The translations under genes were made by a program, and so were the position numbers. The notes below the pieces were generated by a model. The model was not told the DNA's origin and did no database searches. It saw only the letters and a program-made list of their open reading frames with translations. From Candidatus Terraquivivens ruidianensis (lineage in GTDB: Archaea > Thermoproteota > Nitrososphaeria_A > Caldarchaeales > Wolframiiraptoraceae), in assembly GCA_023267975.1 (NCBI GenBank), contig JALNLA010000006.1, forward strand, positions 1-64,000: a stretch of 64,000 nt of DNA, given 5' to 3'. Each line of letters begins with the position of its first letter. The stretch's first letter is position 1. This document shows, piece after piece, positions 757 to 4,882 of this stretch.

Positions 757-787
757 ACTCCTTAACATACGAAAGTATGCAGTATTC

Positions 788-2248
788 ATGAAAACGATAG
801 GCATAGTGGCAAGCCATGCGACGGAATCCCGCGTAACCATGATACTTAATGAAGGCATGGAGAAAGAAGTAGAGAACGAAAGTCTAGTCTTGGTGGAGAA
901 TAGGAACGGAGGCAAGATACTCGCCGTCTGCAGGAGCGGTATCGGCATAAACGACGTACTGAGGGCAACGATCTACTCTCCCGGCGTTGCTTACGCGAAG
1001 ACAGGCAGGCAACCGAGTACTGCCAAGGAGTTCTTCGGCTTTAATCTCGTGATAATCGGTGATGTGTCGAAGGGAAGGATTGAGCAGAACAAACGCATAA
1101 TAGCGCCAACATCGCCCGTAAAGCTTTTCGAAAAGCACGACGACCCATTCTCTTACTTCGGCCCTCATAACCTAAAGATGGGACACTATAAAGACGTCGT
1201 AAGCTGGCAAGTGCCCGTACGCGATGAGTACATACCGTTCCATATAGGCGTCTTTGGTGTAACGGGTTCGGGAAAATCCTTCTTTTGTAGGTATGAGTTG
1301 ATTCCGCTACTCAGAAAGGCCGGTTACGATGTATTGGTTTTTGATTGGAAAGGTTCGGACTATGCCCCCTATTTTGGCGATAGGATGTCGATGCGGGACA
1401 TAGAGATGGATGATGAGGCGATAATATCCTTCCTATGTTCAAAGGCAGGGAACTTCGGCTCTGGTAAAATAGCAGATACTATGAGGGCCTATCTCGAAGA
1501 GGCTCTTGCTGATGGCGAGTGGAAGTTATATTCTCCTGAGGAGGCAAAGGACGTACTCTGCTCGAAAATAAGAAAAGCGATAGAGGACGAGAATAGGGAT
1601 AAACAGGGCAACGTCACACAATGGGGCAGGCTTTACTTACGCCGGCTGGAGAAAGGGTTCAAGCGGATTAGCGTAGAAGACTTTGCAACGGTCCTTGGTA
1701 AGATGGGGCCCGAGCAGATAGTGGAAAGGTTGAGGCAACAGCACATTCTCGTTATAGACATGAGCCTCGGAAGCAAAGAGCAGAAGCTTTCGGTATTCCT
1801 TTCGATAGCGAGGTACCTTAAGGACCTAATGGAGAAGAAGAATCGTTTAAACATAGCCCTCCTTATAGACGAGGCCCCGCAGTATTGCCCCTATTCACCC
1901 AGCGACCTAGAAGAAGAAACGACCGAGATGATAACCTCCTTATGCGCCCTCGGCAGGACCTATGGCCTTTCAATAATCCTTTTGTCCCAAGGCATTGCTG
2001 GTGAGATAGGAATAAACGCTGCCGTGAGAAGGAACCTAAACACGCAATTCATAGGGCGTATACACCCTCTGGACTTGGATGAGGCATCAAAGCTATTTGC
2101 AATGTCTGGAGTTGACCCAGAGAACCTCCTAAGGCTTCCAGAAGGGTACTTTTACTTCATCGGTAAGATGAATCCATCGCCCATTCCGCTACTTCTGAGC
2201 TTCCAGATAAGGGAGGATGAAAAGGTTGGGCATTCGACCAGAACTTGA
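788..2248 (+). CDS. herA: HerA-type hexameric DNA translocase/helicase
   Basis: HerA is a ring-shaped FtsK/HerA-superfamily ATPase that works with the NurA nuclease and Mre11-Rad50 to resect DNA ends for recombination. The 486-residue product has an N-terminal beta-barrel-type region, a Walker A motif GVTGSGKSFF near residues 157-166 and a Walker B region ALLIDEAPQY near residue 357. The start at 788 is chosen because a TATA box lies at 749-756 and the preceding 20 in-frame residues look unlike protein. The 3' end overlaps nurA by about 30 bp, so the two are translationally coupled. Confidence 0.9.
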   Translation: MKTIGIVASHATESRVTMILNEGMEKEVENESLVLVENRNGGKILAVCRSGIGINDVLRATIYSPGVAYAKTGRQPSTAKEFFGFNLVIIGDVSKGRIEQNKRIIAPTSPVKLFEKHDDPFSYFGPHNLKMGHYKDVVSWQVPVRDEYIPFHIGVFGVTGSGKSFFCRYELIPLLRKAGYDVLVFDWKGSDYAPYFGDRMSMRDIEMDDEAIISFLCSKAGNFGSGKIADTMRAYLEEALADGEWKLYSPEEAKDVLCSKIRKAIEDENRDKQGNVTQWGRLYLRRLEKGFKRISVEDFATVLGKMGPEQIVERLRQQHILVIDMSLGSKEQKLSVFLSIARYLKDLMEKKNRLNIALLIDEAPQYCPYSPSDLEEETTEMITSLCALGRTYGLSIILLSQGIAGEIGINAAVRRNLNTQFIGRIHPLDLDEASKLFAMSGVDPENLLRLPEGYFYFIGKMNPSPIPLLLSFQIREDEKVGHSTRT

Positions 2249-3446
2249 AGAATATCCCGATTGGAGCAGGATGCCCAAGGTATTGCAGACCAGGTTTTTC
2301 GAGCTAGCTGAGGCGGAGGCTCAAAAGTTTATTCAGGCCAATGTAGTCAACGCGAACGTTATCAATAAGCTAAGGAGCATGCTGAAGATAAAGAGGCTCG
2401 ATAGCTACGAAGGCTGGGAGGAGCTTCTAGTCGCTTGCGTCGATGGTTCCGATACTCCTGTCTGCAACGAACGCATAAGCTTGAGGTATGCTTTATTCGC
2501 AAGCGCTTATAAGCTCTTCAAAGGTCTGGACGGGCTTGAGGAGGAATTCATGAGCGATTACTATAGCGACAGACAGATCATATCGCACGATAAATTTTCC
2601 AAGATTGTCGAACTTTTCATGACGTATTACGAAAGGTTAATGGCCCATCGAGCGTTAGAAAAACATTCACCGGACATATTGATGCTGGACGGTAGCTTAT
2701 TCGGTTACAGGGCCAGATGCAGCGAAATTCTTGATGAGGAGGTCGACTGGACACCTTTCGGCAAGAGCACCGGGTTTAAAATCGGCAAAGAGCTGGTAGA
2801 GGAGGTAACAAGGCTAACGGTTGAGTTGGTAAAATCTGGTAGGGCATTGGGCATAATAAAGAGGGTGAACACTGCTTCGATAGACGGCTGGATTGCTTAC
2901 AAAGAGCCGTTAAGTAGACCGATAGGTCTGAATGACCGTACGCTCTTAAGCATGATTATGGAAACATGTACGTTTTTCTCATACGATGAGGCTTTTGATG
3001 TAAATTTTAACATACTGAACTGGTACAGGAGCGTGTCAAAGGAATTAAAAGGAAAGGGCCCGGAAGATATTTTAAAAGAGACCGAGAGGAGGTTTAAAGT
3101 TCAAATTAAAGCGGACTTAGGCGACGAGTCTTACTTACAATACATCATGGGTATGAGACGTTGCTATGTTAAGACCATGTATGAATATCCGCCAGTATGT
3201 GTTGAGTTTTGGAAAGGAAGCGACCCCGAGTGGGTTAGGAAGGCTCTCCGGTACGTCTATGCATCTAGGGACCCTGCAACAGGTCTCCCATTTCCGCTCG
3301 ATATCGTCGATAACCTTGTAAGCTTACCTAAGGGCGTCGCAAAAGAGTTCGCCGAAGAGGTGGAGGCACGACTTCTCAGAGCGGGCATAGAGCAAAACGT
3401 ACTCCTCACTCTGTTTAGCAGATTTAACCCCCAGAAGGAGGAATAG
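2217..3446 (+). CDS. nurA: NurA 5'-3' nuclease, partner of HerA
   Basis: NurA nucleases form a dimer that docks on HerA and degrades the 5' strand during end resection. The sequence shows the metal-binding aspartates expected for the family: VDGSDTP near residue 75 and MLDGSL near residue 157. At about 409 residues the length fits. The gene overlaps herA by 32 bp. ATG 2217 abuts the Shine-Dalgarno-like GGGAGG (2211-2216), whereas the in-frame TTG at 2226 has a 9-nt spacing to it, so translation may really begin at 2226. The assignment rests on motif, length and its place directly after herA. Confidence 0.85.
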   Translation: MKRLGIRPELEEYPDWSRMPKVLQTRFFELAEAEAQKFIQANVVNANVINKLRSMLKIKRLDSYEGWEELLVACVDGSDTPVCNERISLRYALFASAYKLFKGLDGLEEEFMSDYYSDRQIISHDKFSKIVELFMTYYERLMAHRALEKHSPDILMLDGSLFGYRARCSEILDEEVDWTPFGKSTGFKIGKELVEEVTRLTVELVKSGRALGIIKRVNTASIDGWIAYKEPLSRPIGLNDRTLLSMIMETCTFFSYDEAFDVNFNILNWYRSVSKELKGKGPEDILKETERRFKVQIKADLGDESYLQYIMGMRRCYVKTMYEYPPVCVEFWKGSDPEWVRKALRYVYASRDPATGLPFPLDIVDNLVSLPKGVAKEFAEEVEARLLRAGIEQNVLLTLFSRFNPQKEE

Positions 3447-3448
3447 AG

Positions 3449-4174
3449 ATAACGCAGCATTCAGAGCTTTCCCTGAATGGTTTACTCGATGTTTATCGGA
3501 GTAGGTTGATGAAAGTCCTGCCGTCTTTTGATTGGTATCCATGCGATGCCCACTCACCAAAATGGTGGGGAGGTTTAGAAAGCCCGGAAGAAGTCGCTAT
3601 CACTGCGGTGCTCGTCCAACAAACCAGATGGGAGAACGTAAGGAAAGCGTACGAAAACTTAAGGGTAGCACGTCTAAACAGATTTGTTGCCATTAAAAAA
3701 TCAAGCTTATGCTCAATAAAGAGCTGCATAAAGTCCGTTGGTATGTATGCTAGCAAATCTAAAAGGCTGAAAGAGTTAGCTGATGCTGTTATTAAAGCGG
3801 GTGGTTGGAAGACTTTCATAAACAGGGACGCAAGAGAAATCAGGACAGAGCTTTTAAGGCTGAATGGCATAGGGTATGAAACGGCAGATTCTATTCTTCT
3901 TTTTGCAGGCAACCACTTAATATTTCCAGCGTCGAGGCTGATCGCTAGAGTTCTAGAACGCATAGGCTTTAACGTTCCTAAGGGTTATGAAGCGTTTAGG
4001 AGGTTTGTCGAGTTGGGGCTGCCAAGGGACCTCTTCAGCTATAAGCTCTTTTATGCATCCTCGCTCGTCACGACAAAGGTTGCGTGCCACTCCTCAGAGC
4101 CCGAGTGCCAAAAGTGCTACCTTAGCAACATCTGTCGTACGTTTGCATACAAGCAGGCATCAAACATTCTTTAA
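3449..4174 (+). CDS. Endonuclease III-like HhH-GPD DNA glycosylase, catalytic residues replaced
   Basis: Helix-hairpin-helix glycosylases of this family remove damaged bases. The protein has the hairpin LNGIGYETAD and a C-terminal iron-sulfur motif CX6CX2CX5C (from about base 4085), identical in spacing to endonuclease III. The usual catalytic Lys is Glu, and the essential Asp, 18 residues further on, is Ser (codon 3932-3934, in FPASRLIARV). The only standard starts are TTG 3506 and ATG 3509, but the family-like segment LLDVYRSRLMKV lies before them. An ATA at 3449, 7 nt after GGAGG (3437-3441), is the best-placed initiation codon. It follows nurA by two bases. It may be a DNA-binding or altered-activity protein rather than a working glycosylase. 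Confidence 0.75.
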   Translation: MTQHSELSLNGLLDVYRSRLMKVLPSFDWYPCDAHSPKWWGGLESPEEVAITAVLVQQTRWENVRKAYENLRVARLNRFVAIKKSSLCSIKSCIKSVGMYASKSKRLKELADAVIKAGGWKTFINRDAREIRTELLRLNGIGYETADSILLFAGNHLIFPASRLIARVLERIGFNVPKGYEAFRRFVELGLPRDLFSYKLFYASSLVTTKVACHSSEPECQKCYLSNICRTFAYKQASNIL

Positions 4175-4882
4175 CGATACTAGGTTATGCGGCTTTTCCC
4201 TTAAAATAATGTAACCTGCGAGGTCAAAGAACCTATCCGCTTTATGTATAACGACCGAGTCGCTTGATATAACCAATCGTTTATCTCTAAGAAGAGCAGA
4301 GTCAACGCTTTTCTCGGTATCAGCCGAGCCCTCCATTCCCTCTTCCTGTAAAATCCTCCTCGTGAGGGCAGATATTTCACCGCTCTTACTTATCTGGCTT
4401 TCATAGTAGAAGAAAGCTTCTGCGACCTTAAGCTCCTTTAACGTCTTAACAATTAATCTTATTAACTCCTCAGTCGTACTCGTAGACCTGAATTCTCCAT
4501 GAACTTCTGAAACATCCCTTACGACACCGTCGTCGCAAAGCACCAGCAGCCTGCCATCCCTGAACGATTGCAAGGTATTTAACACGTTGAAACCATCTAC
4601 AGCAACCTTCTCATCCTTTAATTCGCTCGGACCTATGGCTCTTTCCCTTACCCTCTTAACGCATTCTGAGGAATAGATGCATCGATATAGTATGCTCCTA
4701 GCCATTCTGTCAAGGACATACCTGTTTGCTACGAAGTCGACGGCCGATTCTCTTTTGTATCCCCTATTCAGGAGATACCTCAGGTCCTCGGCTGCCCTAA
4801 TCAACTTATCCCAAACACTCTTTACCCATTGAACGTCGTCCATTTGAGTTCGTCCACTCATCTCAAGGAAGCATCTCGACAA
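4160..4882 (-). CDS. DUF434/DUF5616 family protein of unknown function
   Basis: The N-terminal part (AAEDLRYLLNRGYKRESAV, about residues 31-49) matches what I recall of the DUF434 family, and the rest resembles the linked DUF5616 domain, with an acidic VDGFNVL segment reminiscent of nuclease-like folds. No activity is known. It begins inside the last bases of leuS (20 bp overlap from the first ATG; ATG 4861 or ATG 4843 are alternatives) and so probably forms an operon with it. Its 3' end overlaps the convergent glycosylase-like gene by about 15 bp. Confidence 0.7.
   Translation of the reverse strand: MSRCFLEMSGRTQMDDVQWVKSVWDKLIRAAEDLRYLLNRGYKRESAVDFVANRYVLDRMARSILYRCIYSSECVKRVRERAIGPSELKDEKVAVDGFNVLNTLQSFRDGRLLVLCDDGVVRDVSEVHGEFRSTSTTEELIRLIVKTLKELKVAEAFFYYESQISKSGEISALTRRILQEEGMEGSADTEKSVDSALLRDKRLVISSDSVVIHKADRFFDLAGYIILREKPHNLVSLKNV

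Follow-up and report, generated by a model that had tools for sequence, protein, structure and literature searches.

An HhH-GPD Glycosylase-Like Protein Encoded beside herA-nurA in Candidatus Terraquivivens Probably Belongs to an Archaeal Group Lacking the Catalytic Asp

Introduction

To our knowledge, Asp has long been taken as nearly invariant in the HhH-GPD glycosylases. In the genome of Candidatus Terraquivivens ruidianensis (1.3 Mb in 8 contigs; genus Candidatus Terraquivivens), a gene directly downstream of a herA-nurA pair encodes a protein of this superfamily that has Ser in the place of the Asp. The gene lies in a stretch of 64,000 nucleotides, hereafter the window (Table 1). This raises the question of what the protein does. 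It may be a working DNA glycosylase that manages without the Asp, or it may have lost its catalytic activity and now serve to scan or organize DNA. Alternatively, the Ser could reflect a sequencing error or the decay of the gene. Here, we weigh these hypotheses using profile searches, alignments, trees, a predicted structure, gene neighborhoods, and the published work on a relative from Saccharolobus.

Results and Discussion

The frame on the forward strand at 3449-4174 comprises 241 residues and contains no internal stop. It matches the Pfam HhH-GPD profile (8.4e-11), and its best profile, ahead of endonuclease III, is NCBIfam PRK13913 (MagIII 3-methyladenine glycosylase; 2e-21), with a score of 76.9 bits that lies below the curated cut-off of 192 bits. 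The endonuclease III profile TIGR01083 did not reach its cut-off either (50.9 versus 211.7 bits), and the best PDB sequence match was the MagIII of H. pylori (HpMagIII, 1pu6; 3e-15). The structure predicted for the protein (pLDDT 95.5, pTM 0.92) has EndoIII and MagIII as its structural matches. With the MagIII/MpgII/Mja-UDG family (COG2231, PRK13913), the protein shares the GxGxETAD hairpin with its Glu, the WW pocket motif, and the fold, although MagIII proteins have retained the Asp (VVDAYT) and a Tyr where the Terraquivivens protein has PASRL. It also resembles endonuclease III (Nth) in fold, in the HhH hairpin, and in the spacing of the Fe-S loop, but endonuclease III has a catalytic Lys and Asp, and the Terraquivivens protein has neither. 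The same genome encodes an ordinary Nth with both Lys and Asp (L002).

We confirmed the residues that had singled this protein out. The GIGYETAD hairpin carries Glu144 at the place of the endonuclease III Lys, Ser162 (codon TCG) stands exactly 18 residues on at the place of the Asp, and the Fe-S motif CX6CX2CX5C is intact (Cys213-X6-Cys220-X2-Cys223-X5-Cys229). A first-pass annotation of the sequence had read this pattern as the loss of both catalytic residues. The Asp is truly missing, but Glu144 does not mark the loss of a Lys, because Glu is the usual hairpin residue of the MagIII/COG2231 family and is present in 126 of the 126 relatives we aligned.

TABLE 1 Features of the locus, in window coordinates
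Feature	Position	Strand	Basis
herA-like ATPase gene, the genome's second HerA	782..2248	+	Pfam DUF87/HerA 4.3e-12; found paired with nurA throughout the order
nurA (409 aa), the genome's second NurA	2217..3446	+	Pfam NurA 1.8e-9; orthologues in most of the order's genomes
HhH-GPD glycosylase-like protein, probable Asp-less MagIII offshoot, Sis-HhH-GPD group	3452..4174	+	Translation, Pfam, NCBIfam, PDB match, trees
Trp61, counterpart of W57 (base stacking) of Sis-HhH-GPD	3629..3631	+	Invariant in Asp-less and Asp-bearing relatives; numbering match
Glu144 at Lys site, counterpart of essential E134	3878..3880	+	Glu in 48/48 S/T-type, 78/78 Asp-type; E134A inactive (PMC11754123)
Ser162 at catalytic Asp site, counterpart of dispensable S152	3932..3934	+	Alignment; S152A active (PMC11754123)
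Leu164 in place of Y154, essential in Sis-HhH-GPD	3938..3940	+	Alignment; Y154A inactive (PMC11754123)
Lys199, invariant in Asp-less group	4043..4045	+	60/60 Asp-less; 19% of 78 Asp-type
CX6CX2CX5C [4Fe-4S] loop, Cys213/220/223/229	4085..4135	+	Cys invariant in Asp-less group

A protein with Ser at the Asp site has been characterized in Saccharolobus islandicus. Zhang et al. 2025 reported that Sis-HhH-GPD (SiRe_0278), which has Ser152 at this site, is bifunctional even though it is without the EndoIII Lys, that it excises 1-methyladenine (1-meA) and MMS-induced lesions, and that a strain deleted for SiRe_0278 is MMS sensitive (PMC11754123). In the same study, S152A retained wild-type activity, E134A and Y154A were inactive, and W57, R157, R161, R200, and three of the four Cys residues contributed to activity (PMC11754123). 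We found that a Sulfolobaceae protein from our survey (L156, genome G392) matches all 11 residue numbers of that study (W57, E134, S152, Y154, R157, R161, R200, C203, C210, C213, and C219), and therefore the published enzyme belongs to the same Asp-less group; this protein also falls within the same tree group as the Terraquivivens protein. The Saccharolobus-type and Terraquivivens proteins are about 36% identical, and both carry Ser where the Asp would stand, Glu where the Lys would, and the four-Cys Fe-S loop. W57, R157, and R161 correspond to W61, R167, and R171, and R200 likewise has a basic counterpart, Lys210. In contrast, Sis-HhH-GPD needs its Tyr154, and the Terraquivivens protein has Leu164 there. 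Judging by this homologue, Asp-less chemistry has already been found experimentally, which would explain the missing Asp. The first-pass suggestion of a new chemistry was reasonable, but the chemistry had already been published (PMC11754123).

Our surveys show that the replacement of the Asp is no oddity of a single Saccharolobus protein. The first survey covered 398 genomes of the phylum and 80 loci of GTDB genomes. Among the distinct MagIII-like proteins it returned, 48 have the Asp replaced by Ser (88%) or Thr (12%) and are hereafter called S/T-type. All 48 are archaeal, from Terraquivivens, family f24, Sulfolobaceae (Metallosphaera, for example), and other groups, while 78 MagIII-like proteins with Asp came from bacteria and other archaea. 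A second survey, of 229 genomes, added more Asp-less proteins. In the genomes surveyed, many archaea of the phylum share the replacement of the Asp as a trait of the group. Even Ser is not universal: one protein, added by the second survey, has Ala at the site (L203 of G412; PIARL), and another has Thr (L206 of G411; PVTRL).

In a tree with an Nth outgroup, the Asp-less proteins formed one main group, which includes the Saccharolobus-type protein (44 rows, support 100/97); a second tree was rootless, and its branching order was less clear. A single overall loss of the Asp was not rejected (p-AU 0.43), yet it is not proven, because two Asp-less proteins (L021 of G072 and L170 of G213) sit on long branches apart from the rest. 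These two and a further divergent, long-branched pair (L012/L013 of G033 and G029) possibly represent independent losses.

Glu144, Trp61, Lys103, and Arg171 are kept by all 48 S/T-type and all 78 Asp-type relatives. In the alignment of these two sets, no new acidic column has become fixed among the Asp-less proteins, and a newly conserved acid standing in for the Asp could be discarded, as the only position that is acidic throughout is Glu144, which is already family-wide. Residue 200 is Glu in 87% of the Asp-bearing proteins, whereas the Asp-less ones mostly have Leu, Ile, Val, or Met. In the predicted structure, Ser162 directly precedes the helix spanning residues 163 to 172. Asp caps helices well, as do Ser and Thr, and on this model helix capping would explain why it is exactly Ser or Thr that replaces the Asp.

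Position 164 separates the Terraquivivens protein from most of this group. Tyr occupies it in 39 of 48 S/T-type proteins compared with 78 of 78 Asp-type relatives, while all six Terraquivivens proteins have Leu. Altogether, Leu or Gln takes the place of the Tyr in 17 proteins, which come from Terraquivivens, genus g148 of family f53, genus g159 of family f15 (Gln rather than Leu), genus g171 of family f70, and the MAG EvPrim.Bin14. In our careful tree, the Tyr-less proteins form one group (support 88/86); a quick tree, from which the longest branches were left out, requires two changes for the Tyr-less state. All 17 proteins retain Trp61, Glu144, Arg167, Arg171, Lys199, and the Cys residues. 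The literature we found reports no activity for any member of this branch, and both the branch and the invariant Lys199 go beyond what PMC11754123 covers.

We consider it likely that the Terraquivivens protein is a [4Fe-4S] HhH-GPD DNA glycosylase of the Asp-less, Glu-dependent Sis-HhH-GPD group, an offshoot of MagIII/COG2231 that acts by the mechanism outlined here. The protein most likely still works as a glycosylase, but with an altered base pocket; its activity and its substrate are both inferred. The HhH and the Fe-S loop would hold the DNA, Trp61 and the WW pocket would take up a flipped, probably alkylated, base, and Glu144 would fill the catalytic role that the Asp has in other families. 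Ser162 would do no more than cap the following helix, and Lys199 may act as a lyase nucleophile. Since the second stacking residue has changed from Tyr to Leu in this branch, the pocket and probably the substrate would differ from those of Sis-HhH-GPD. The same change counts against this explanation, given that Leu164 stands where Sis-HhH-GPD has the Tyr that could not be mutated to Ala without loss of activity. The low identity to the Saccharolobus-type protein, about 36%, counts against it as well.

Alternatively, the protein may have become catalytically dead, losing the Asp and then the Tyr, and may now scan DNA or play a structural part as a damage sensor or accessory of the second HerA-NurA. 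The first-pass annotation had named such a role as one of its options, and the absence of both the Asp and the essential Tyr from 17 proteins of several genera is consistent with it. So is the gene order, as herA, nurA, and the glycosylase gene, facing the DUF434 and leucyl-tRNA synthetase genes, follow one another in six of six Terraquivivens genomes. However, Glu144, Trp61, the WW pocket, both Arg residues, and Lys199 are all invariant in this branch, although a mere scaffold would have no use for them, and within the flanks covered (about 1.5-7 kb) we found no herA-nurA beside relatives outside the genus. Catalysis in the related Sis-HhH-GPD and the evidence from the group favor chemistry, and we regard a noncatalytic protein as unlikely.

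The neighborhood also bears on the proposal that the protein is linked to HerA-NurA end resection. Within the genus the linkage holds as a conserved gene order, but it concerns the second herA-nurA pair only and was found at no locus outside the genus. When we looked for herA-nurA near Asp-less and related genes at 92 loci (some of them repeats, with flanks of about 1.5-7 kb), the sole match was Terraquivivens itself (L044), and within this distance we rejected a linkage extending beyond the genus. The herA-nurA pair of the window, which has no mre11-rad50 with it, is found throughout the order in the absence of the glycosylase gene, and in the two Sulfolobaceae we examined, the neighbors of the gene are succinyl-CoA ligase genes and others in place of the herA-nurA of Terraquivivens. 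The canonical nurA-herA-mre11-rad50 operon lies on another contig (G000 C3, around 109 kb; L227), with mre11 and rad50 named by eye from the sequence, and the glycosylase gene is linked to the second pair and not to this operon. Cooperation of the glycosylase with HerA-NurA is possible, and the gene order supports it weakly. As to a possible role in defense, PADLOC gave the HerA of the window matches to mad8 models and to generic HerA models, and the window's NurA none. A NurA-like match elsewhere in the genome, at C4:71061, was weak (13.7 bits) and fell below the cut-off.

A more specific proposal is that the Tyr-less branch acts with neither the Asp nor the Tyr, that it uses Glu144 together with Lys199 to process some lesion that is not 1-methyladenine, and that in Terraquivivens the product is passed to a dedicated second HerA-NurA, which we hold to be quite improbable. 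We also consider improbable an active enzyme in which Lys199, rather than Glu144 alone, is the key residue, for instance as the lyase nucleophile; such an enzyme would be a bifunctional glycosylase whose Lys has moved to another position. This position is Lys in every Asp-less protein and in a minority of the Asp-bearing ones (Table 1), alongside the change at residue 200, and the bifunctional activity of Sis-HhH-GPD without the EndoIII Lys (PMC11754123) points the same way. Nevertheless, the Asp-less proteins mostly form one tree group, so that the co-occurrence may be simply inherited, and some Asp-bearing relatives have Lys199 too. On its conservation, Lys199 is a candidate lyase nucleophile. 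It corresponds to K189 in Saccharolobus numbering, which is absent from the mutants made (PMC11754123), and nobody in the literature we found has mutated it. How the Asp-less enzymes work is thus testable with a few point mutants.

A sequencing error or a decaying gene almost certainly does not account for Ser162: the non-canonical start codon is the sole point in favor of this, whereas each of the six genus members has the Ser, dozens of other species have Ser or Thr, the frame is open in all six Terraquivivens genomes, and dN/dS is well below 1. Because all six share the residue, Ser162 is not the sequencing error for which the first-pass annotation had allowed, and the conservation of Ser or Thr at the Asp site across species refutes error and decay alike. 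The dN/dS of the glycosylase gene within the genus, about 0.07-0.16, is a rough estimate with dS near saturation, and by this measure the gene is under purifying selection.

The start codon is uncertain, the candidates being ATA at 3449, ACG at 3452, and TTG at 3506. ATA is no normal start, and the first in-frame ATG, GTG, or TTG is the TTG at 3506. Four of the six genus members, including the source genome, have ACG at 3452-3454, and the other two have ATG there. The absence of a normal start suggests either a non-canonical start or coupling to the stop codon of nurA, which lies at 3444-3446. In one genus member (L006), the first 30 or so codons of the gene contain no ATG, GTG, or TTG. At its other end, the gene is overlapped by 15 bases by a convergent gene on the reverse strand (4160-4882), which encodes a DUF434/DUF5616 protein and is found in all six genus members.
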